From: Saxibacter everestensis | Lineage (GTDB): Bacteria; Actinomycetota; Actinomycetes; Actinomycetales; Brevibacteriaceae | Direction of reading: 5' to 3' | DNA: 64,000 nucleotides | Assembly (NCBI RefSeq): GCF_025787225.1 | Contig: NZ_CP090958.1 | Location: 2,900,550 to 2,964,549 of the forward strand | Shown here: positions 20,368 through 31,071 of the stretch, piece after piece | How positions within the stretch are numbered: the first letter of the stretch is position 1 | Layout: every line of letters starts with the position of its first letter | The notes under the pieces: generated by a model | Seen by the model: only the letters and a program-made list of their open reading frames with translations | What the model was told of the DNA's origin: nothing | The model's database searches: none | Program-made: the position numbers and the translations under genes

Positions 20368-20401
20368 CGCCCGACCACGGCCAAAGGCCGCCGAGCAGAA
20401 A

Positions 20402-20446
20402 GAAGGGCCCCTGGCCAGCGTTTTCGCTGGTCAGGGGCCTTTCTTC
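20402..20446 (+). terminator. Rho-independent terminator after the SDR gene
   Basis: GGCCCCTGGCCAGCG pairs with CGCTGGTCAGGGGCC (one wobble) around TTTT, followed by TTTCTT. A lone perfect DnaA box lies further on, at 20582-20590; otherwise the gap to the next operator is featureless. Confidence 0.92.
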
Positions 20447-20635: not shown

Positions 20636-20672
20636 TACCCCCTATGGGTATAGGTTATACCCCGTCGGGGTA
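20636..20672. promoter_or_regulatory. CsoR/CstR-like double operator upstream of the MFS-UspA operon
   Basis: TACCCCCTATGGGTATA (20636-20652) and TATACCCCGTCGGGGTA (20656-20672) are adjacent G/C-tract palindromes of the TACCCC-spacer-GGGTA type bound by CsoR/CstR/RcnR repressors. They end 30 bases before the MFS start, where they would block initiation. The same motif recurs at 24575 and 31024. Confidence 0.65.
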
Positions 20673-20702
20673 CGCCGACACAGGTTCTCAGGAGGAAATC
20701 AC

Positions 20703-22133
20703 ATGTCTACCCACCCGCCCAGATCGTCAGCGAAGCGGTGGCTCGGCCTGGTGCTAATCGCCACGGCGCAGTTCGTTGTCATCATGGACACCTCGATCAT
20801 CGGTGTCGCCCTGCCCGATATTCAAAGAGATCTCGGCTTCACGCCGGAGTCCCTGTCCTGGGTGTTCAACGCCTACGTGGTCGCCTTCGGCGGCCTACTC
20901 CTCCTGGGAGGTCGCCTTGCGGATGTCTTTGGCGCGCGCAAGATATTCGTGCTGGGCTGGATCATCCTGATCGCGGGATCGGTACTGGCGGGAGCCGCCA
21001 GCAACGTCGGACTCGAAATCGCGGGACGCGCTATCCAGGGCGCCGGATCCGCAATGATCGCGCCAGCCGCGCTCACTCTGCTGATGATGCTCTTTGGCGG
21101 CACCTCCGATCTCCCCAAGGCCTTCGCGGTTTACGGCGCAGCAGCACCGATCGGCGGCACAGCCGGAGTCTTCCTCGGCGGGGTGTTGACCGAGTATGCG
21201 AGCTGGCCTTGGGTCTTCTACGTCACGATTCCGATCGCGGCCTTCGTCCTCGCATTTACGGCAACGGCGCTCCCCCGCACCCTCCGGAAGGAGTCAGGGT
21301 CGATCGACATCGGCGGCGCACTCACAGTGACAGGCGGACTCGCCGCGGTCGTCTACGCCGTTGTCAATGCACCGGAGGGCGGTTGGCTCACATTGCCCAC
21401 CCTCGGCGTGCTGGCCGCAGGCATCGTACTGCTGGTGATTTTCTTCATCATCCAGGCACGAAGCCGCAATCCACTGCTGCGACTCAGCCTGCTTCGCGCA
21501 CCTCTGCTTGGTGCCGCGAATGGTGCTCAGCTACTGCTGGGGGCGGCCTGGGTATCCATGTGGTTCTTCCTGAACCTGTATCTCCAGCAGGTTCTCGGCG
21601 CGGGTGCCTTCGCTGCCGGCGCCGCACTACTTCCGATGACCGGCCTTGTCGTTCTCGTCATGGTCGCGTTGGCTCCGCGCCTTCAGGAGAGATTCGGCGC
21701 GAAATCGCTTATCGTCAGCGGCCTCCTCTTATTGGCGGCCGGGCTCGTGTGGCTTTCCTTCGTTCGTCCGGACGGCAACTACGCGGCCGATGTTCTGCCC
21801 GCATCGCTCCTGGCGGCCCTCGGAATGTCACTAGCGTTCGTTCCCTCGCTCGGTACCGCCATCAACGCGGCACCTCCGGCCGAGACCGGCGTTGCCTCGG
21901 GACTGGTGAGCACGAGCTACCAGATCGGATCCGCGCTCGGACTCGCGGTGCTCACGGCGATCGTCTACGGCATCTCCGGAACCGACCCCTCCCGAGTAGA
22001 GCTGACCCAGGGATATTCGGCCGCCTTTATCGGCGCAGGAATACTCGCCCTGGTCGGAGCAATCATCACAGCCATTGCGATGACTAAGCCCCGGGCGTCT
22101 GTTCCTACGGACGATGAATCAATCTCGGTCTAA
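20703..22133 (+). CDS. MFS drug-type transporter, 14-TM (DHA2/EmrB-QacA)
   Basis: The ATG at 20703 has AGGAGG upstream and gives 476 residues. The N-terminal helices contain VVIMDTSIIGVALPDIQRDLG and the conserved loop GGRLADVFGARKIF; 14 hydrophobic segments are apparent. The family exports drugs, dyes or other toxic compounds with protons. A CsoR-like operator overlaps the promoter region, and a universal stress protein gene follows, so the exporter is probably induced by copper or a reactive sulfur species. The substrate is not readable from sequence. Confidence 0.87.
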   Translation: MSTHPPRSSAKRWLGLVLIATAQFVVIMDTSIIGVALPDIQRDLGFTPESLSWVFNAYVVAFGGLLLLGGRLADVFGARKIFVLGWIILIAGSVLAGAASNVGLEIAGRAIQGAGSAMIAPAALTLLMMLFGGTSDLPKAFAVYGAAAPIGGTAGVFLGGVLTEYASWPWVFYVTIPIAAFVLAFTATALPRTLRKESGSIDIGGALTVTGGLAAVVYAVVNAPEGGWLTLPTLGVLAAGIVLLVIFFIIQARSRNPLLRLSLLRAPLLGAANGAQLLLGAAWVSMWFFLNLYLQQVLGAGAFAAGAALLPMTGLVVLVMVALAPRLQERFGAKSLIVSGLLLLAAGLVWLSFVRPDGNYAADVLPASLLAALGMSLAFVPSLGTAINAAPPAETGVASGLVSTSYQIGSALGLAVLTAIVYGISGTDPSRVELTQGYSAAFIGAGILALVGAIITAIAMTKPRASVPTDDESISV

Positions 22134-22172
22134 CAGGCAGCCCAACCAGCAACGACTAGAAGGGAAACACCC

Positions 22173-22670
22173 ATGTCCACTCCAAAACTGCTAATCGCCT
22201 ACGACGGGTCACCCAACGCACAGTGTGCGATTCACACCGTCGCAGGCCTTTTCCCAGGCGCGACAGCGGTGCTGCTCTATGCCCGCCAAACAATGGAGGG
22301 CTTCGCAGCGCACCTGGAAGGGCATCCGGCACTCGAGAAACTGCAGGGCCTCGACGCCGCGGCGCTCGACGCTTCGGAACAGATTGCGGCCGATGGCGCG
22401 CAACTGGCCCGCAGCCTCGGCCTGATCGCCGAGTCGCTGATCTCCTCCACGATGGCCACAGCATCCGAAACCATAGTGGACACCGCCGAGGAACTGAATG
22501 TCGACCTGATCGTGCTCGGTTCCCGCGGCTTGCGTGGCTTCAAAGCGACCTTGCTAGGGAGCACCTCGGCGAGCGTCCTTCACCATGCCACCCGCCCGAC
22601 CCTCGTGATTCCTTCGGATTCGGTGGCTGTGGCTCGCCGCAACAGCCGGGTAGCAGCGGCCACAGAGTAG
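22173..22670 (+). CDS. Universal stress protein UspA family
   Basis: This 165-residue single Usp domain starts LLIAYDGSPNAQCAIHTVAGLF and ends with the ATP-binding motif GSRGLRGFKATLLGSTS, then HHATRPTLVIP. The glycine-rich loop predicts the nucleotide-binding subclass. It follows the MFS gene by 39 bases with GAAGGGAA upstream, and is closed by a perfect inverted repeat. It probably shares the CsoR-like control of the MFS gene. Confidence 0.88.
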   Translation: MSTPKLLIAYDGSPNAQCAIHTVAGLFPGATAVLLYARQTMEGFAAHLEGHPALEKLQGLDAAALDASEQIAADGAQLARSLGLIAESLISSTMATASETIVDTAEELNVDLIVLGSRGLRGFKATLLGSTSASVLHHATRPTLVIPSDSVAVARRNSRVAAATE

Positions 22671-22689
22671 GACATCGCCAGCGTCGGGA

Positions 22690-22731
22690 CTGTCGGATCT
22701 GTCAGGCAGCGATGCCTGACAGATCCGACAG
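22690..22731. terminator. Perfect 19-base inverted repeat between uspA and the FAD oxidoreductase gene
   Basis: CTGTCGGATCTGTCAGGCA is followed by GCGA and its exact reverse complement. No T-run follows. It probably ends the MFS-UspA transcript; its perfection and its position 18 bases before the next start would also allow an operator role. Confidence 0.6.
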
Positions 22732-22749
22732 CAGTGTTAAATTTGCCCG

Positions 22750-23844
22750 ATGAGTGGGCCAGCCGAGCGGGTGCGACGACGTATCGCTGTAGTCGGCGCC
22801 GGAGTCGTCGGAACGGCACTCGCCTATTATCTCGCTCGGGACGGCGCGCAGGTTCTGCTCATCGATGAACGACATGCCTGCGGAGGTGTCACAAAGGACT
22901 CATTCGGGTGGGTCGGCCTCTCCGCTTCCGCATCTGACCCAGACCAGGCGGCTTTGCGCCATCTCGCGTCGACCGACCTCGATCGCATCGAGGACGAGCT
23001 CCCCCTCCCGGTTTCGCTTCGCCGGAACGGAGCGCTGTCCTGGTCCGCTGAACGAGGAAATCCTGGCTCAGTCCCGACTTTCCACCAGGAACCGACTTCA
23101 TCGGTTCGCATCGTCAGCCGTCCCGAGATTCAGAAACTCGAACCGAGCCTGATCAATCCTCCTCAGTCAGCCGTGTTCGCCGAGAACGACGGAAGCGTCG
23201 ACCCCGTCGCGCTGACGTTGTCCCTCCTCCGAGGGGCACAGCACTTCGGAGCGACCCTATCGCCGGAAACCCGCGTGCGCGAAGTACACATATCCAACGG
23301 CAGAGTCAGCGGACTGCGGACCGTGACCGGCACGATCGACGTCGATACGGTTGTCCTCGCCGCGGGCACGGAAACGACCGGACTCGCACGCACCGCCGGC
23401 GTGCGCGTACCGATCAATCCGTCGCCATGCATCCTCATGCGGTTCACCACGCCGAAACGCCTCCTGAACCGGATCGTCTCAGGCCCGGAGTTTGAGTTCC
23501 GGCAAGCTACCGACTCGATGCTGCTCGCGGCCGAGGACTATGTCGACGACTCCCCAGAAAACGGACCCGAAGCACTCGCGCGGCTGACTCTCGAAACTAT
23601 CCATAACGAGATCGCCGGCTCACGGGACGTCGCCCTCTCAACCGTGTCTGTCGGTCGCCGCCCGATTCCCGAAGACGGCCGCCCGGTCATTGGAAGCGCG
23701 GCGGTGGGCGGCCTGTACGTCGTCTCAGCCCATGCTGCGGTCGCGCTTGCCTGCGGTATCGGTCGCTTGGCGGCGGAAGAGATCATTCAGGACCGCGAGC
23801 TCGAAGCCCTCAAGCCGTTCCGGCCCGCTCGATTCGCGGGGTGA
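22750..23844 (+). CDS. FAD-dependent oxidoreductase, DAO family
   Basis: This 364-residue protein starts with an FAD Rossmann motif, VVGAGVVGTALAYYLARDG, and ends with GRRPIPEDGRPVIGSAAVGGLYVVSAHAAVALACGIG, the usual DAO C-terminal flavin contact. That suggests oxidation of an amino acid or another small secondary amine (glycine/sarcosine oxidase type). It follows the 19-base inverted repeat and is on the same strand as the MFS-UspA pair. The substrate is unknown. Confidence 0.85.
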   Translation: MSGPAERVRRRIAVVGAGVVGTALAYYLARDGAQVLLIDERHACGGVTKDSFGWVGLSASASDPDQAALRHLASTDLDRIEDELPLPVSLRRNGALSWSAERGNPGSVPTFHQEPTSSVRIVSRPEIQKLEPSLINPPQSAVFAENDGSVDPVALTLSLLRGAQHFGATLSPETRVREVHISNGRVSGLRTVTGTIDVDTVVLAAGTETTGLARTAGVRVPINPSPCILMRFTTPKRLLNRIVSGPEFEFRQATDSMLLAAEDYVDDSPENGPEALARLTLETIHNEIAGSRDVALSTVSVGRRPIPEDGRPVIGSAAVGGLYVVSAHAAVALACGIGRLAAEEIIQDRELEALKPFRPARFAG

Positions 23845-23846
23845 TC

Positions 23847-23894
23847 AACGCGGCGACTGCTCGGCCGAGTAACGCGGCGACTGCTCGGCCGAGT
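23847..23894. repeat. 24-base tandem duplication just after the FAD oxidoreductase gene
   Basis: The unit AACGCGGCGACTGCTCGGCC plus GAGT occurs twice head to tail, starting two bases after the TGA stop of the oxidoreductase gene. It is similar in size and position to the one at the galK end. Confidence 0.88.
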
Positions 23895-23976
23895 AGGAGC
23901 CCGATGGGCTGACTCGAATCACCGAGAGAATTTTGGGGCGCCCGAGTTGCAGTCTCGCCGTCATCCGCCGTGTGTC

Positions 23977-24501
23977 TTAGTCGGGCCTACCCGGCGTGAG
24001 CCCTGCCATGAGGTTGAACGCTCCGGTGAGGATGTTGAGTGCAACGATGCCGACGACATCGGCGATCTCGCGGTCGCTGAAGCCGTGAGCCCGGAGGTTG
24101 TCGACCTGCTCGTCGGTGATAGCGGTGGGCTCTCGGTAGACCTGGACGCCGAGGGCAATGATCGCGGTCAGGGAGGAATCGGCAGACGACCCCTCGTGAG
24201 CCAGCTCAATTTCCTCTTCGCTGATGCCGAGCGACCGAGCGGCAGCGACGTGCGACTGAAGGCACAGACCGCACCCCTGTTGAGCCTGTACGGCAATGGA
24301 GATGCGTTCGCTGATCTTGCGATCCAGTTTGGCGCGCCTCAGGGCTCGGCTGAGTTGGAGATATCCGCCGAGCACGGCCGGCGAATGCGCCATCGTTGAC
24401 ACCATGTCACCGACCTGACCATGCCGGTCAACCAGTTCGCCGAGCAGATCGCGCGAGGCGCCTACGGCAGTCTCGGGAGCGAGGCGGGAAAGACGGGGCA
24501 T
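23977..24501 (-). CDS. AhpD-like carboxymuconolactone decarboxylase family protein
   Basis: This 174-residue protein has the redox CXXC and following His of AhpD-type proteins in QGCGLCLQSHVAAARSLG (about residues 75-90). Such proteins act as peroxidases or thiol-disulfide partners. A CsoR/CstR-like operator lies about 75 bases upstream (24575-24598), so it is transcribed separately from the MFS gene upstream. Thiol chemistry fits both copper stress and persulfide detoxification. Confidence 0.85.
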   Translation of the reverse strand: MPRLSRLAPETAVGASRDLLGELVDRHGQVGDMVSTMAHSPAVLGGYLQLSRALRRAKLDRKISERISIAVQAQQGCGLCLQSHVAAARSLGISEEEIELAHEGSSADSSLTAIIALGVQVYREPTAITDEQVDNLRAHGFSDREIADVVGIVALNILTGAFNLMAGLTPGRPD

Positions 24502-24574
24502 GGTGACTCCTTGGTGTCTCGAATCGATCTGGGGCGAAGGTCTGATGTCAGATCTCGTGATAGTACTTCGATAC

Positions 24575-24598
24575 TACCCTATACCGGTACGGGGTATC
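24575..24598. promoter_or_regulatory. CsoR/CstR-like operator upstream of the ahpD-like gene
   Basis: On the minus strand it reads TACCCCGTACCGGTATAGG, matching the TACCCC-spacer-GGTATAG pattern of the 20636 site. Outer half-sites TACCC and GGGTA are also symmetric. It is one of three related sites in a 10 kb span. Confidence 0.55.
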
Positions 24599-24638
24599 AT
24601 AGCCAGGCAGCACAGTGCATGCACGGAGGGTGAATCAC

Positions 24639-25886
24639 CTACGTCATCGACTGATGTTTTGGGGTTTTCGCGGGCCTGCGCGGCAAATCGTCCGGATGCG
24701 GAAGGTCGGGAATGCGGATGCGCTTCACCGTTGCGACCGCGCAGAGTACGCCGATCACAGCTCCCAGGGCCATCATCGCTCCCTGGAGGGAGATGAGCGG
24801 AACGAGCAGGCCGGCGATGATCGTGGGCACGCCGAAGGCGAGGTAAGAGACGGTGTAGATGACGGCCATTACCGCCGCGCGTTCGGCCGGATCTACCCGT
24901 GGCATAAGTGTCTTCAGAACCCCCATGAAGGCCGTTCCAAACCCAGTTCCCACCACCGCGACGGTGACCAGGTAGGCAGGGAAAGAGTGCAGGGCCAGGG
25001 CTCCCAGGTTCAGTGCGGTGCCGATGCCGAGAGCGGATGTCCCATAGACACTGACGACGCGGGCCGAGCTGCGATGGAGCAAAACGGATGCGATTATTCC
25101 TGAAACCGCGAAGATGGGAATGGTGATGCTCTGCTGCGCGTGCGTCGTCGCGCCGAACTCGATCTTGACAACAGAAGATCCGAGCGCGAGGAACAACCCG
25201 TTCGTCGCCCAGCCAGCGATGATGGCGGGGACGGCCACCTTGAGCGCACGGCGCATCTTTGCGGGAACAGCAGGCCGCGAAATGGTGCTCGCGACCCGGA
25301 GGCGCACCGAGCGCGTTGCCGCTGGCGTCGCCCACACCAGTGCGGCGATCAGAAGGAACACAACAGTGAGCGAACCGAACACGGCGCCGGTGGGGTTGGC
25401 CAGGAGGTCTAGGACGATCGCCGCCGTGATCGCGCCGATCCCGAGCCCGGTCATGGCCGCGATCGTGTTCCACAGCGAGGCAGCCTCCGATTGCTTGGGA
25501 GGCGCGAAGTCGACAACCATCGCAGACAAGGCCGGGAGCAGCAGGCCCGCGGCGATCCCTTGGAGCGACCGGGCCACGAGCAGCATGGTCAAGCTATCCG
25601 ACTGCCAGAACACCACCAGGCTCACGGCCAGCAGCACGGACCCGACCGTGATGACAGGACGTCGACCGACGGCGTCCGAGATTGCCCCGGTGAGCAGCAG
25701 CGCCGCGAGCATGGTGAATGCGTAAACAGCGAATATCAGCGTCGTCGCGACAGGCGGCAACCCCAGCTGCTCGGCGAACCGCGGGTAGAACGGAGAGGGT
25801 GCACTGGCTGCAACCATCAGCAGGATGGTCGCTGCGATAGCGAAACCGAAGCTTCTGCGGTGACCCGCAGCTGTGTAGGCCGGCAT
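24639..25886 (-). CDS. MFS transporter, 12-TM, last gene of the copper operon
   Basis: The ATG at 25886 starts one base after the stop of the upstream FAD reductase gene and gives 415 residues with about 12 membrane helices. An in-frame upstream extension to 25991 would overlap that gene and lacks helices. SDAVGRRPVITVGSVLL is the conserved MFS loop, and RSLQGIAAGLLLPALSAMVVDFAP follows. It appears to be the last gene of a minus-strand operon that starts with copZ. A role in metal or metallophore export or import is inferred only from position. Confidence 0.85.
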   Translation of the reverse strand: MPAYTAAGHRRSFGFAIAATILLMVAASAPSPFYPRFAEQLGLPPVATTLIFAVYAFTMLAALLLTGAISDAVGRRPVITVGSVLLAVSLVVFWQSDSLTMLLVARSLQGIAAGLLLPALSAMVVDFAPPKQSEAASLWNTIAAMTGLGIGAITAAIVLDLLANPTGAVFGSLTVVFLLIAALVWATPAATRSVRLRVASTISRPAVPAKMRRALKVAVPAIIAGWATNGLFLALGSSVVKIEFGATTHAQQSITIPIFAVSGIIASVLLHRSSARVVSVYGTSALGIGTALNLGALALHSFPAYLVTVAVVGTGFGTAFMGVLKTLMPRVDPAERAAVMAVIYTVSYLAFGVPTIIAGLLVPLISLQGAMMALGAVIGVLCAVATVKRIRIPDLPHPDDLPRRPAKTPKHQSMT

Positions 25887-25887
25887 T

Positions 25888-27039
25888 TTAGGAGCGTGCC
25901 TCGTGGAGGCGCTGGCTCCATTGGTAAACCGCGCCAACCGCGTCGATGCCGCTTGCGCCGACCACGGTGTCACCCTGCTCGTGCAGAACAATGAAATCCT
26001 CGGTGTCCTCGACGCGCGTGTCGGGGTGTCCGGTGTAACCGACTCCGGAGATCATCTGCCCATAGATCATGGCCATGTAGGCGCTTCGAGGCCGGTACGG
26101 GCCCGGGTCTTCACCTCGGCCTTGCTCGTGGAGCAGCATCTGAGCGGCGTGTGTTCCTTGCGCGGCCCCATCGTCCCAATGGTCGATGCGCCACGTTCCG
26201 AGGTAGTCGTCGTGATGCTCGGCTACGCCTCCGGCCGCGTAGACGCTTCCGAGGCCGTGCACGCGGAGCCGGTCGTCTACGACCACCCCTTCGCGCCAGG
26301 GCGCAGGAGCTAGGGGTTTCGTGCCGAGGGCGAAAATGACGAGGTCAACGATGAGGTCGGTTCCGTCGTCGAGGTCAACGACCGTCGCATCCGTTTCGGG
26401 ATGAACCCCTTTGATAGTGCGGCCGAAGTACGTGGTCACGCTGGCCTGATGATCGGCTGCGATGCGCTCGGCAACCGGCCTGCCGAATGTGGCGATCCCC
26501 GGTATTCTACTGCGGGCGATCAGGCTTATCCGGTGACCTTGAGCCTGCAGCGCCGACGCGGTCTCAGACGCGGTAAGTCCGGCGCCATAGATCGCAATTC
26601 GCGCCGGTCTGCCACACGCGCGGACCGCCTCCCTGATTCGCACGGCGTCCTCTAGCGAATGCAGGGCGATCAGAATTCCGGCCTCTTCGGCATGTTCCGC
26701 GCCCGGCACATCGGCGTCCAAGCCGCGCGCTCGGCTTCCGGTCGCGACGATAAGTGAGTCATAGGCAATCGCTGCGCCAGAGGCCAACCGAATCTCGCAG
26801 GTTTCAGGATCGACGTACTCGGCAGTATCTGCGATGAAATCGGCTTGCGGCATGGGCAGCCGAATGAGCTCGGGAGCGGCTAAACCGTATGCGACACCTT
26901 TGATGAGCATGCGCGTGTACGGGGTCTCGTCAGTTTGCCCGACGATGGTGGTCGTGATGTCATCCCGACCGGCGAGGGCGCGAGCGGCGGCAGTGCCCGC
27001 CGCTCCGGCGCCAAGTATCACGGCATGGTTTGCGGACAT
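25888..27039 (-). CDS. FAD/NAD(P) disulfide-reductase-like oxidoreductase (ferredoxin reductase type)
   Basis: The ATG at 27039 follows GGAGAA and gives 383 residues. There are two dinucleotide-binding motifs, ILGAGAAGTAAARAL at the start and IAIYGAGLTASETASALQAQG at about 150, plus VATGSRARG and a final flavin segment, VYAAGGVAEH. No redox CXXC pair is present, so it fits the ferredoxin-reductase/NADH-dependent class rather than mercuric reductase. Its place between the YHS gene and MFS gene of the copper operon suggests a redox role in metal handling, which is inference. Confidence 0.83.
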   Translation of the reverse strand: MSANHAVILGAGAAGTAAARALAGRDDITTTIVGQTDETPYTRMLIKGVAYGLAAPELIRLPMPQADFIADTAEYVDPETCEIRLASGAAIAYDSLIVATGSRARGLDADVPGAEHAEEAGILIALHSLEDAVRIREAVRACGRPARIAIYGAGLTASETASALQAQGHRISLIARSRIPGIATFGRPVAERIAADHQASVTTYFGRTIKGVHPETDATVVDLDDGTDLIVDLVIFALGTKPLAPAPWREGVVVDDRLRVHGLGSVYAAGGVAEHHDDYLGTWRIDHWDDGAAQGTHAAQMLLHEQGRGEDPGPYRPRSAYMAMIYGQMISGVGYTGHPDTRVEDTEDFIVLHEQGDTVVGASGIDAVGAVYQWSQRLHEARS

Positions 27040-27161
27040 GTGTTGCGTTCTCCAATTTCGGGTGAGTGGCTGCGGCGGTGTGAGCGTTGCCATCAGGTCC
27101 GTTCCGGTCAGCGGAGTTCGCGGCGCACGAGAAACGGGCCGCGAACTCCGCGTCCGTGCTG

Positions 27162-27431
27162 TTACTTCAGGTTGGCGGCGTACTTGGCGGGGTCCGAGTC
27201 GAAGGCTGGGCCGCATCCGGCGCAGCAGAAGTAGTACCGCTCGCCCTCGTGGTCGCGATACAGACCGGCCGCTTCAGCAGCCATCTTGCTGACGGGAGTG
27301 CCGACCATGACCGGACAGGTGGTCATATCGTCGCTCGCGCCGCCGAGCAGATTCCTACCATTGCCCGCCGCTGCAGGGTTGGGCGTGCTCGTGCTGCAAC
27401 AGCTGGAGGTCACTAGGAGGTCGTTCGTCAT
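27162..27431 (-). CDS. YHS-domain metal-binding protein
   Basis: The ATG at 27431 gives 89 residues. The N-terminus has CC (SSCCSTST). The YHS domain fills the C-terminal half: CPVMVGTPVSKMAAE, then YYFCCAGCGPAFDSDPAKYA, where the clustered Cys residues are expected to bind metal. YHS domains accompany copper ATPases, sometimes as fusions; here it is a separate gene directly after copA. It is probably a copper chaperone or sensor. Confidence 0.85.
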   Translation of the reverse strand: MTNDLLVTSSCCSTSTPNPAAAGNGRNLLGGASDDMTTCPVMVGTPVSKMAAEAAGLYRDHEGERYYFCCAGCGPAFDSDPAKYAANLK

Positions 27432-27481
27432 TACGGGTGAGTCCCTTCGTATTTTCTGTGCGATGGTGTGGGGCCAAAGCG

Positions 27482-29752
27482 TCACTGCTTGGCGACGCTT
27501 TTGAACCCGCGCAGGCGCAAACTGTTGCCGACGACGAAGACGCTGGATAGTGCCATCGCAGCCCCTGCGAGCATGGGGTTGAGCATGCCGAGCGCCGCGA
27601 CGGGAATCGCTGCGACGTTGTAGGCAAATGCCCAGAACAGGTTGGTCTTGATCGTTCCGAGCGTCTTGCGGGACAGGCGGATCGCGTCGGCCGCGCTGCG
27701 CAGGTCGCCGCGCACCAGAGTGATATCGGACGCTTCGATCGCGACATCGGCACCGGTGCCCATTGCAAGGCCGAGGTCGGCTTGAGCGAGGGCGGGGGCG
27801 TCGTTGACGCCATCGCCGATCATCGCGACGGTCTTCCCCTCGCTCTGCAGCCGGGTGACAACGTCGACCTTGTCCTTCGGGAGGACTTCGGCGATGACCT
27901 CCTCGACGCCCACCTCTGTGGCGATCTGCCGGGCGACTGCTTCGTTGTCACCGGTGAGCAATACCGGGGTCAGGCCGATCGCCTTGAACTGTGCGATCGC
28001 TTCCGCGCTGGTCGGCTTGACCGTATCGGCCACGACGAGGATGCCTCGCGCCTGGCCGTCCCAACCCACCGCGACGACTGTCTTGCCTTCGCCCTCGGCG
28101 CGCGCCTTAGTGGAAACCAGTTCGCGGCTTAGCTTCTGAGACCACTCGGCGAGCAGTGACTCACGGCCCACCAGTACGGCGTGGCCATCGACAACGCCCT
28201 GCACACCCTTGCCTTCGACGTTCGCGAAGTCCTCGGGGGTCAGCAGTGCACCGACCTCCTGCGTTGCACCCTTGGCGATCGCCTGCGCGATCGGGTGCTC
28301 CGAGGCATCCTCCAACGCACCGGCCAGCCGCAGCAGCTCGGCCCGATCGGTGCCCGGCTCAACGACCACATCGACGAGCGTCATCTTGCCGGTTGTGACG
28401 GTGCCGGTCTTGTCCAGCACGACAGTGTCGATCTTGCGGGTCGATTCCAGCACCTCTGGGCCCTTAATCAGCACACCCATCTGCGCGCCGCGGCCGGTGC
28501 CGACCAGCAGCGCCGTCGGTGTTGCCAGGCCGAGTGCGCAGGGGCACGCGATCACGAGCACGGCGACCGCAGCGGTGAAAGCCGCCGTCACCGGGAATCC
28601 AGCACCAAGCCAGCCGCCGAGTGCGGCGAACGCGATCACAATGACGATCGGCACGAACACGCCAGAGATCCTGTCGGCCAGGCGCTGCACTTCGGCTTTG
28701 CCGGTCTGGGCGTCCTCGACGAGCTTGGCCATCTGCGCCAATTGCGTGTCCGACCCGATCCTGGTCGCACGCACCACGAGCCGACCGCCCGCATTCGTTG
28801 TAGCCCCGGTGACGGTGTCACCCTCTGCAACCTCAACCGGGACAGCTTCGCCCGTGAGCATCGATGCATCCACCGCGGAGGTCCCGGAGACCACGACACC
28901 GTCGGTGGCGATCTTCTCCCCCGGACGCACGATGAACTCGTCACCGACCCGCAGGTCCTCGACGGGAACTTTCGTTTCGATGCCGCCGCGCAGTACCGAC
29001 ACCTCTTTCGCACCGAGTTCGAGCAGTGCTCTCAAGGCTGCGCCGGCCTGCTTCTTGGACCTCTTCTCGAAGTACCGGCCGGCGAGGATGAACATCGTAA
29101 CTCCGGCGCCCACCTCGAGGTAGATGTTCGCCGCACCATCGGAGGGGGCCAACGCGAACTCGAACGCGTGAGTCATACCTGGTGTTCCCGCGGTGCCGAA
29201 GAACAGCGCGTACAACGACCAGAGGAACGCAGCGGAGGTGCCCATGGAGATGAGAGTGTCCATCGTCGCGGCGCCGTGCTTGAGGTTCGTCCACGCTGCC
29301 TTGTGGAACGGCCACGCCGCCCACAGGATGACCGGGGCCGCCAGCGCCAGCGACGCCCACTGCCAGTAGACGAATTGCAACGCGGGGATCATCGCCATCG
29401 CGATCACTGGCACGGTCAACACGATCGCGCCGATCAGGCGATTGCGCAGTGAGATGAGCTCCGGGTCCGCGTCGTCGGCGTCACCGGATGATGCGCCGTC
29501 CTTCTTACTGCCCGTGGGCGCCGGCACCGCTGCGGTATACCCGGTCTTCTCGACCTCGGCAATCAGCAGCGCCGGGTCGTACCCATCCGGCACGGAGACC
29601 TGGGCCTTCTCGGTCGCGTAGTTCACGGTCGCGGTGACACCGTCGATCTTGTTCAGCTTCTTCTCTATCCGCATCGCGCAGGAGGCGCAGGTCATCCCGC
29701 CGATCTCCAACTCGACGCCTGTGCCCACGCTCGGGGGTGCTGATGTGCTCAT
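27482..29752 (-). CDS. copA: Copper-exporting P1B-type ATPase
   Basis: This 756-residue protein has one N-terminal HMA domain with GMTCASCA, the transmembrane metal site CPC in [13 protein letters not shown], phosphorylation motif DKTGTVT, the HP locus in EHPIAQAIA, and the hinge [16 protein letters not shown]. Near the C-terminus, [23 protein letters not shown] is present, as in Cu(I) pumps. It exports Cu(I) from the cytosol using ATP. The start follows AAGGAA. It is third in the copZ operon, with 50 bases or so before the YHS gene. Confidence 0.94.
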
Positions 29753-29823
29753 GCCGTTATTCCTTTTCTTCCCTGTAGCTGAGGGCTGCAGTCGTCAGTT
29801 GCCGCGTAGGTGAGACCCGAAGG

Positions 29824-30789
29824 TCAGTGCCCGCCCTTGTGCGATCCACCCTCGGTTTCCGTCGCGCCGTCACCGTGGGCGGCATCGAGCACGAACTCGG
29901 CGGTGTGCACCTGGCCGTCGACCTGGAAGTCCAGGTACAGCAGGTAGCGACCGGCGGTCGGGGCCTCTGCGGCGAACGCAATCTCGGGACCGGATGTCTC
30001 GCCGGCCACGGGCTCTTCACCCTCGGCGTGAACGTGCAGATAAGCGAGGTCACCTTCACGCAGCGCGACGAGGTGCCCGAAAGCGCCGAGGTACGGTTCC
30101 AGGGCGGTGACCGGTTGGCCATCACGCGTGACGGTGAGCGTGAGTTCGCTCGCCGAGCCCGCCATCAGGTCGCCATCGAGGGAGACCGTGAAGCCACCGA
30201 CCTCTGAGACCCGGGTCGGATCCGACGCCACGGGAGCGAAGTCTCCCGCCACCTGAACGGTGCGGGTGAGTGTGAGCGAGGGTGCGTCGGCCCCGGCCGG
30301 CGTGAAGTCCGCGAACACGCGGTAACTCCCGGCTTCAGCCCACGACCACGGCGTCGACCAGGTGCCCGTGGATTCGTCGAGTACCGGGTGGACGTGACGG
30401 AATTGGCTGCCATCGGACCGAGCCACGATCAGATGCAAATCTTTGTCGTGCGCGGTCGTGTACTCCGTGACCGGCGTGCCTGACGCATCCTGAATCTGGA
30501 AGCTCAGTTCGCCGGACTCGCCGACGCCCGCAGGCGCTTCGACCGGCGACAACACGTACCCACTGCTGCCGAGTGCGAGGCCCTTCAGATTGTCGGCAGC
30601 GGCGCTCGTCGACTCGCTGACCCCGGTTGCGCCGGAAGCGTGGCCGCCATCGTGACTCTTCATTTCAGTGCCTTTCGTCCAATCGCTCACAGCGCTCGAC
30701 GGGATAGCGGCGCCAGCGATGCCGAATGCACCACCGAACGCCACCACCAGCCCGAGCCCATACACAGCAAGCCGTGCGCCGGCGTTCAT
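29824..30789 (-). CDS. Membrane-anchored extracytoplasmic His-rich copper-associated protein
   Basis: This 321-residue protein has one N-terminal hydrophobic segment (about residues 5-30), with no lipobox seen. A Met/His-rich stretch follows (MKSHDGGHASG), then beta-rich domains with FRHVHPVLDE and YLHVHAEGEEP, ending in a His-rich tail (GGSHKGGH). Proteins of this type sit beside copA in actinobacterial copper operons and probably bind copper outside the membrane. Its ATG overlaps the copZ stop by four bases. No named family could be assigned with certainty. Confidence 0.75.
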   Translation of the reverse strand: MNAGARLAVYGLGLVVAFGGAFGIAGAAIPSSAVSDWTKGTEMKSHDGGHASGATGVSESTSAAADNLKGLALGSSGYVLSPVEAPAGVGESGELSFQIQDASGTPVTEYTTAHDKDLHLIVARSDGSQFRHVHPVLDESTGTWSTPWSWAEAGSYRVFADFTPAGADAPSLTLTRTVQVAGDFAPVASDPTRVSEVGGFTVSLDGDLMAGSASELTLTVTRDGQPVTALEPYLGAFGHLVALREGDLAYLHVHAEGEEPVAGETSGPEIAFAAEAPTAGRYLLYLDFQVDGQVHTAEFVLDAAHGDGATETEGGSHKGGH

Positions 30790-30998
30790 ACTGCCCGCAC
30801 CGCCGAGTAGCCAGCCTCCGTTACGGCCGTCAGAATCTGTGAGTCCTCGACAGAGTCGGAGCCCGTGACAACGAGCCTTCCCGTCTGCGCACTCACCTGG
30901 ATGTCCTGCACACCGGCGATCTCGCCGACCTCTTCACGGATCGACATCTCGCAGTGCCCGCAGGTCATGCCCGTCACCTGATACTCGTTCGTAGCCAT
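30786..30998 (-). CDS. copZ: Copper chaperone CopZ
   Basis: This 70-residue single HMA domain has the metal site GMTCGHC near the N-terminus and the usual beta-alpha-beta-beta-alpha-beta length. It carries Cu(I) to CopA. It is the first gene of the six-gene unit and lies just downstream of a double CsoR-like operator. Confidence 0.93.
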   Translation of the reverse strand: MATNEYQVTGMTCGHCEMSIREEVGEIAGVQDIQVSAQTGRLVVTGSDSVEDSQILTAVTEAGYSAVRAV

Positions 30999-31023
30999 CC
31001 CGAATCTTCTTTCTGTATTCTTG

Positions 31024-31071
31024 TACCCCTACCGGGTATGTGTACATAGATTATACCCAGTGGGGGTATAA
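31024..31071. promoter_or_regulatory. CsoR/CstR-like double operator upstream of the copper operon
   Basis: TACCCCTACCGGGTA (31024-31038) and a longer palindrome at 31051-31071 (TTATACCC, AGT, then GGGGGTATAA) lie 26-73 bases upstream of copZ. The arrangement of two palindromes about 12 bases apart resembles that at 20636-20672. The copper operon is therefore probably repressed in the absence of copper. Confidence 0.7.

Follow-up and report, generated by a model that had tools for sequence, protein, structure and literature searches.

A CsoR copper switch very probably exerts trans control over a mobile copper cluster with an exporter and an AhpD-like thiol protein in Saxibacter everestensis

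Repressor operators that stand in a gene cluster lacking a repressor gene raise the question of which protein reads them and to which signal it responds. Such a case is presented by a 64,000-nucleotide stretch of the Saxibacter everestensis genome (NZ_CP090958.1, positions 2,900,550 to 2,964,549; the whole stretch is hereafter called the window, and coordinates are counted from its first letter unless given for the genome), in which copZ and copA are accompanied by a gene for an MFS exporter (MFS1), a UspA-family gene and an ahpD-like gene. The original prediction placed CsoR/CstR-like operators before the MFS1-UspA unit, the ahpD-like gene and the copZ operon, and proposed that this regulon may sense copper or persulfide. 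The comparative analysis described here indicates that a CsoR copper switch very probably acts in trans on this mobile copper cluster, including its exporter and its AhpD-like thiol protein.

Four of the predicted sites are clean palindromes of the form TACCC-N5-GGGTA. Two of these, 22 bp apart, precede the MFS1-UspA unit (CsoR type-2 operator 1, 20636-20650, TACCCCCTATGGGTA; operator 2, 20658-20672, TACCCCGTCGGGGTA), and two, 30 bp apart, precede the copZ operon (copZ-proximal operator, 31024-31038, TACCCCTACCGGGTA; copZ-distal operator, 31054-31068, TACCCAGTGGGGGTA); a spacing of 22-23 bp recurs among the tandem operators of related loci. The third place, ahead of the ahpD-like gene, turned out to be a compound operator (24575-24596) made of two overlapping 15-mers with one mismatch each. 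The four exact sites match the published type-2 pattern, TAC-X9-GTA with G/C tracts and about five free bases, whereas the ahpD site forms no clean palindrome under it; the signature TAC-X9-GTA with an N5 spacer is that given for the Streptomyces lividans CsoR in the accessible part of its description (PMC3902906).

For scoring, a weight matrix was derived from 76 distinct sites 5′ of MFS1 orthologues in other genomes and from none in S. everestensis; its independence is limited in that some of these orthologues have the same 15-mer as the window. With this outside matrix, the six operator positions rank first in the window, with scores of 23.2 and 21.7 for operators 1 and 2, 21.5 and 28.0 for the copZ-proximal and copZ-distal operators (the latter being the top of the window) and 17.9 and 8.0 for the ahpD 15-mers at 24582 and 24575, compared to only 2.7 for the best other position. 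Exactly the sites that had been assigned to a single CsoR-type regulon are thus singled out. With an N5 spacer and the reverse complement as partner half-site, the window contains 4 sites for TACCC and a total of 2 for the remaining 19 of its 20 distinct permutations. At up to two mismatches to the plain pattern, the window signal is weaker than for exact sites (16 matches vs 7.2 expected, with 16 reached by one of 100 shuffles).

The motif is not common in the genome as a whole. Exact sites with spacing 5 occur in seven places, namely before a copB-like ATPase gene, before csoR, twice before copZ, twice before MFS1 and once in overlap with a tRNA-Gln gene, and the looser exact pattern with spacers of 3-7 occurs in 10 places vs 4 for its control. 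Genome-wide counting with one mismatch was uninformative (48 places vs 65 for the reversed control) and the weight matrix was therefore used. Among the 48 places with at most one mismatch, 44 were scored, and the seven exact places together with the ahpD site are the top eight, that is, copper promoters, window promoters and the tRNA overlap; the four unscored places are 15-mers of two scored places with the same 2,487-bp spacing and are probably rRNA copies. The strong match at genome position C1:921402, which overlaps the tRNA-Gln gene, was rejected as an operator and is taken as chance.

The window encodes no DUF156 protein, as had been noted: both genome-wide PF02583 matches fall outside it, and tblastn of the window with three CsoR queries returned nothing better than E 0.05. 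The genome, a single contig of 4.05 Mb, contains one intact DUF156 gene at C1:3796436-3796678 (PF02583, E 1.1e-30) and a fragment at C1:2242438. The intact csoR, located about 865 kb from the cluster (832 kb beyond the window's end), heads a csoR-copZ-copA operon and has an operator, TACCCCCTCTGGGTA, on its own 5′ side (loci L001/L013), which closes the gap of operators without a regulator. The nearest PDB relative of its product is the S. lividans CsoR (4adz, E 1.2e-31), and the Cu(I) ligand set Cys46-His71-Cys75 is conserved between the two proteins.

The same arrangement recurs in other actinobacteria. The best 80 loci from one contig scan encode proteins 60-92% identical to MFS1; two of these lie too near a contig end, leaving 78, and about 250 bp before each orthologue were scanned. 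An exact operator is present 5′ of the orthologue at 59 of the 78 loci and a site with a matrix score of at least 12 at 67, compared to 24 among 2144 280-bp stretches taken at random from these loci. The upstream stretches contain 90 exact sites for TACCC and one for 19 permuted half-sites in total, and the dependence on the spacer is strict, with 90 sites at spacing 5, six at spacing 11 (perhaps coming from overlapping sites) and none or one at every other spacing from 0 to 12. The sited loci belong to 22 named genera in several orders; they include many close relatives and the counts are not independent. Copper genes or csoR are found within the stretch examined at 52 of the 78 loci. Because the same operator stands before the same MFS gene in many actinobacteria, the exporter probably belongs to the copper response. 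Among adjacent site pairs at most 75 bp apart (L089-L168 and related loci), 13 of 75 are spaced by 22-25 bp and 41 by 30-39 bp, two preferred spacings that differ by about one helical turn. A further search gave 28 MFS matches, four of them in the S. everestensis genome; a site stands just 5′ of L054 (the window MFS1), of L055 (64% identical to MFS1) and of L061, L062, L066 and L073, and none was found directly upstream of the remaining matches. The last four are just 34-36% identical to MFS1, so that more than one MFS subfamily is found under such operators.

Orthologues of the ahpD-like gene are rare: at E<=1e-35 an order-wide search found them in 4 of 396 genomes, and at E<=1e-20 a CMD search found them in 1 of 59 relatives, S. 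everestensis being counted in both. Outside S. everestensis, 22 ahpD loci were examined; the MFS1 set supplied 11 of them, plasmid matches 8 (out of 10) and the order-wide search 3. Near-duplicates seem to be present among them (L172/L177, L178/L179 and L096/L098), and L115 is a piece of 57 amino acids only. At least one operator (matrix score of at least 12) is present in 21 of the 22 and csoR in 16; the sole locus without an operator, L159, has copA and copZ. The motif E-X11-C-X2-C-X3-H, the AhpD (CMD) catalytic set, is kept in 19 of 20 AhpD-like proteins (one of them from the window; L115, L160 and L177 were not part of this set of 20), the exception being the truncated protein of L091. A site directly 5′ of ahpD is a minority feature, found in the window, L091, L095 and L160 among 15 loci, and, outside these 15, in L180, where the site lies 50 bp upstream.

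In Galactobacter (L095) the gene order is MFS1-UspA, ahpD, operator, csoR, MFS2, FAD oxidoreductase, YHS, copA and orf321, and the order in Pseudoclavibacter (L091) is similar; the window has the Galactobacter order minus csoR. By alignment with L095 and L091 and by gene order, the csoR position of related clusters corresponds to 24502-24638 of the window, where no csoR is found, and the ahpD operator of the window aligns with the exact operator that Galactobacter has between csoR and ahpD. In the CsoR tree, the surviving csoR groups with that of family relatives (support 0.84-0.91), whereas the csoR genes of L091, L095, L096, L101, L160 and L169-L171 belong to another group (support 0.79). 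The simpler reading would be that csoR was lost from the S. everestensis cluster rather than gained in the sister clusters. Related clusters are found on plasmids and on a Tn3-family transposon. As a separate observation, the ahpD-like gene of L091 (9816-10178) is truncated despite the adjoining exact operator and a full csoR.

Two other copper loci of S. everestensis have operators of this kind. The best-scoring CsoR operator of the genome, at C1:1644395, lies 13 bp before the ATG of the CopB-like ATPase gene (L016, 5187-7418), and its transcript may therefore be nearly leaderless; the ATPase has a CPH motif and a DUF305 protein is encoded further downstream. At C1:2240522-2242900 (L014, 6523-8900) there is a degenerate copper locus with two weak operators (matrix scores 11.4 and 9.6), the beginning of copZ fused to the end of copA, an MFS gene that is still open, a second CMD gene (108 amino acids, with E-X11-C-X2-C-X3-H) and a 42-amino-acid csoR fragment that is 81% identical over 36 residues to the CsoR of genome G003 and 55% identical to the surviving CsoR.

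Computation directly shows the operator sites and how far they are conserved, the chromosomal csoR gene with the ligand residues of its product, and that csoR is absent from this cluster but present in the sister clusters; from sequence comparison we infer binding by CsoR, release by copper and control of all three promoters. In the proposed mechanism, apo-CsoR tetramers on the type-2 operators would keep shut the promoters of the copZ-orf321-copA-YHS-FAD oxidoreductase-MFS2 unit, the MFS1-UspA unit and the ahpD-like gene; rising cytosolic Cu(I) would bind Cys46-His71-Cys75, CsoR would let go of the DNA, and chaperone, pump, exporter and thiol protein would be made together. The cluster is a widespread actinobacterial copper module, often provided with its own csoR, on which the single intact chromosomal csoR would here act in trans. 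Copper-stress roles of MFS1, UspA and the AhpD-like protein are suggested by their regulation and company.

Several observations weigh against this interpretation. The ahpD site is imperfect; 11 of the 78 MFS1 loci have no site, including L154, L156, L159 and L160, which lie beside copper genes; the tree separates chromosomal from cluster CsoR groups with moderate support (0.79-0.91); and the CsoRs encoded near MFS1 are not a single clade, others falling in further groups. Furthermore, at 42 of the 67 sited MFS1 loci no csoR is present in the stretch examined, and, although all 42 genomes have a DUF156 gene, the best DUF156 protein has Cys-His-Cys in only 24, Cys-His-His in 15 and no His in 3, so that the regulator elsewhere is often not a canonical CsoR. 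Among the 15 Cys-His-His genes (12 from Agromyces, 2 from Microbacterium and 1 from Leifsonia), 7 have no operator in the DNA examined.

An operator is found near the other 8 of these 15 genes, and in genomes G409, G412, G413, G418 and G422 it lies between the Cys-His-His gene and a divergent copA, an arrangement that ties the variant to copper. This is the arrangement seen at the Agromyces loci L235, L236, L237, L248 and L251, whose genomes have a best DUF156 match that is not Cys-His-Cys. Judging from this arrangement, the Agromyces protein is probably a variant copper repressor.

The operators could instead belong to a CstR-like persulfide sensor, with MFS1, UspA and the AhpD-like protein as a sulfur-stress regulon. 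CstR belongs to the DUF156 family, as CsoR does; the CstR and RcnR/FrmR branches of this family have similar G-tract operators with other ligand sets and signals, and CstR regulons comprise a DUF156 protein without the Cu(I) histidine together with sulfurtransferase or dioxygenase genes. Besides the common family, this alternative is favored by three genomes with a sited MFS1 (G417, G426 and G428; in the last, a second, nearly equal DUF156 match was left out of the ligand census) in which the top-scoring DUF156 protein has Cys-X-Cys and no His, and by the weak resemblance of the FAD oxidoreductase to a model for sulfide quinone reductases (34.8 bits vs a cut-off of 525), one among many similar families. 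Likewise, other Arthrobacter plasmids are described as pairing a CsoR-family regulator with sulfurtransferases and an MFS gene (PMC6305408, accessible part). However, the genome-wide PF02583 search found no protein of the CstR or RcnR/FrmR branches in S. everestensis, where the only full-length DUF156 protein has Cys-His-Cys; the cluster neighbors are copper genes, and no rhodanese or persulfide dioxygenase is among the Pfam families and the NCBIfam models, at most 25 per protein, listed for the ten cluster proteins. The Cys-His-Cys set is also present in 62 of the 63 distinct non-fragment CsoR-like proteins collected, a set that leans to the best-scoring matches (at most 30 places) and lacks most of the lower-scoring ones, and none of seven CstR-like loci with Cys-X-Cys and no His (L231, L239, L243-L245, L250 and L253; 2-12 kb each, L231 only 2.1 kb) has such an operator in the DNA examined. 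Of the two signals originally considered, copper is accordingly upheld, and persulfide control appears very improbable. More improbable still is a CsoR encoded on an unassembled plasmid: related clusters do ride on plasmids and a Tn3-family transposon (PMC6305408, accessible part), but the assembly is one contig, 98.2% complete, with a suitable CsoR.

The remaining alternatives concern the sites themselves. The MFS1 and ahpD sites might be vestiges that the chromosomal CsoR does not bind, the genes being constitutive; this would fit the absence of the cluster-type csoR, the grouping of the surviving CsoR with those of family relatives, the degenerate ahpD site and the low scores at the 2.24-Mb locus. 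Such decay is nonetheless unlikely, given that the sites before MFS1 and copZ are intact and have the same motif as the operator before the surviving csoR itself, and that a sited MFS1 with no csoR nearby is common in genomes that all have a DUF156 gene. Somewhat more weight is due to the view, itself still unlikely, that true operators are confined to MFS and copZ and that the ahpD match arose by chance, with expression through, for example, read-through from the copper operon. The imperfect site and the lack of a site directly upstream of most ahpD orthologues are in its favor; on the other side are the gap between 17.9 and 2.7, the best score outside the site group, and the location of the window site where Galactobacter has an exact operator.

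The MFS1 gene (20703-22133, + strand; PF07690, E 2.4e-49) encodes a DHA2/EmrB-like exporter, for which the best family model is TIGR00711 (E 6.3e-62; 209.9 bits, below the 230.2 cut-off) and the closest solved structures are EfpA and QacA-type. Clade-conserved Met residues at 28, 128, 286, 312, 320 and 375 were dismissed as a sign of copper transport, the relatives being 60-92% identical, and no His or Cys is conserved at >=70% among them. The UspA-family gene (22173-22670, +; PF00582, E 9.8e-21) has a relative of at least 50% identity at 16 of the 78 MFS1 loci. It is uncertain whether the following gene for an FAD-dependent (DAO) oxidoreductase (22750-23844, +; PF01266) is part of this unit; it was not seen among the neighbors listed. 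On the opposite strand are encoded the AhpD-like CMD-domain protein (23977-24501, -; PF02627, E 1.7e-11; with E-X11-C-X2-C-X3-H) and, in the copper operon, MFS2 (24639-25991, -; PF07690), which has the same order in L095 and L096, an FAD/NAD(P) pyridine nucleotide-disulphide oxidoreductase (25888-27216, -; PF07992, E 1.3e-35), a YHS-domain protein (27162-27485, -; PF04945), the copper P1B-type ATPase CopA (27482-29752, -; TIGR01511, E 1.2e-164), Orf321 (29824-30789, -) and the copper chaperone CopZ (30786-30998, -; PF00403, with NF047957 below its cut-off). Orf321, which matched no Pfam or NCBIfam family, is conserved among copper clusters and, from alignment and a predicted model (mean pLDDT 72.7; residues 1-68 below 50), is probably a membrane-anchored protein with an N-terminal anchor, two Ig-like beta domains and conserved His in the (nearly) invariant stretches HLIVxRxD...HVHP and GHLVALR...LHxH; among the best 50 matches, the fold search gave only generic Ig-like ones with low TM-scores.

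A sigma-70 scan of the three window promoters found no match. In other genomes, 13 of 89 sites have a TTGACA-like hexamer (at least 5/6) in the 12 bp preceding them, vs 45 of 4000 random 12-mers, which is suggestive only. A terminator-like hairpin, read by eye as a GC-rich inverted repeat followed by T, lies at 20400-20445, between the SDR-like gene and the MFS1 promoter.

The operator and repressor are of a known kind; the extension of the CsoR copper regulon to an MFS exporter and a thiol protein appears to be new. The accessible parts of the relevant papers allow three comparisons. The S. lividans CsoR-SLI4375 regulon likewise has type-2 operators, with a single CsoR serving both its own gene and separate copZA operons, but comprises three operators (csoR, copZA1 and copZA2; PMC3902906), whereas here an MFS exporter and an AhpD-like gene are included and operators are paired. 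The gut Firmicutes meta-regulon shares the Cys-His-Cys regulator and the pairing of sites, for which distances of 26, 36-38 and 51 or 56 bp are favored there, but covers mainly csoR and copA and leaves copZ unregulated, unlike the cluster described here (PMC4938975; 'facilitator', 'CMD' and 'universal stress' do not occur in the accessible text). The COP module of Tn6516 on the Arthrobacter plasmid pA40H1 (NZ_MH067970.1) comprises copZ, copA and a hypothetical protein, and close to these are a DUF156 regulator, an MFS gene and a CMD protein of the alkylhydroperoxidase family, but it keeps its own csoR, and the accessible description mentions neither operators nor a copper tie for the CMD and MFS genes (PMC6305408); this MFS gene is matched by neither MFS1 nor MFS2. 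A literature search, outside which most of the subscription literature lay, found no report that CsoR targets a gene of the MFS, UspA or CMD type, and none of five terms sought occurs in PMC9436591.

We tentatively consider it possible, though doubtful, that these genes form a second, so far unrecognised arm of actinobacterial copper resistance besides CopA, in which a CsoR-operator-controlled DHA2-type MFS exporter, a dedicated AhpD-like thiol protein and UspA would handle a copper complex or copper-damaged thiols. On this view the cluster would pass from one lineage to another and come under the copper repressor of each host, of the Cys-His-Cys or Cys-His-His type, its operators outliving their own regulator. 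The CsoR switch itself is known, and its list of targets would be extended by an exporter whose family commonly carries a drug-pump annotation and by a CMD protein. The placement of the operators gives a concrete candidate inducer, copper, for the MFS1 and CMD genes, and the locus illustrates how operators can be kept where their regulator gene is missing, probably controlled by a different member of that repressor family.

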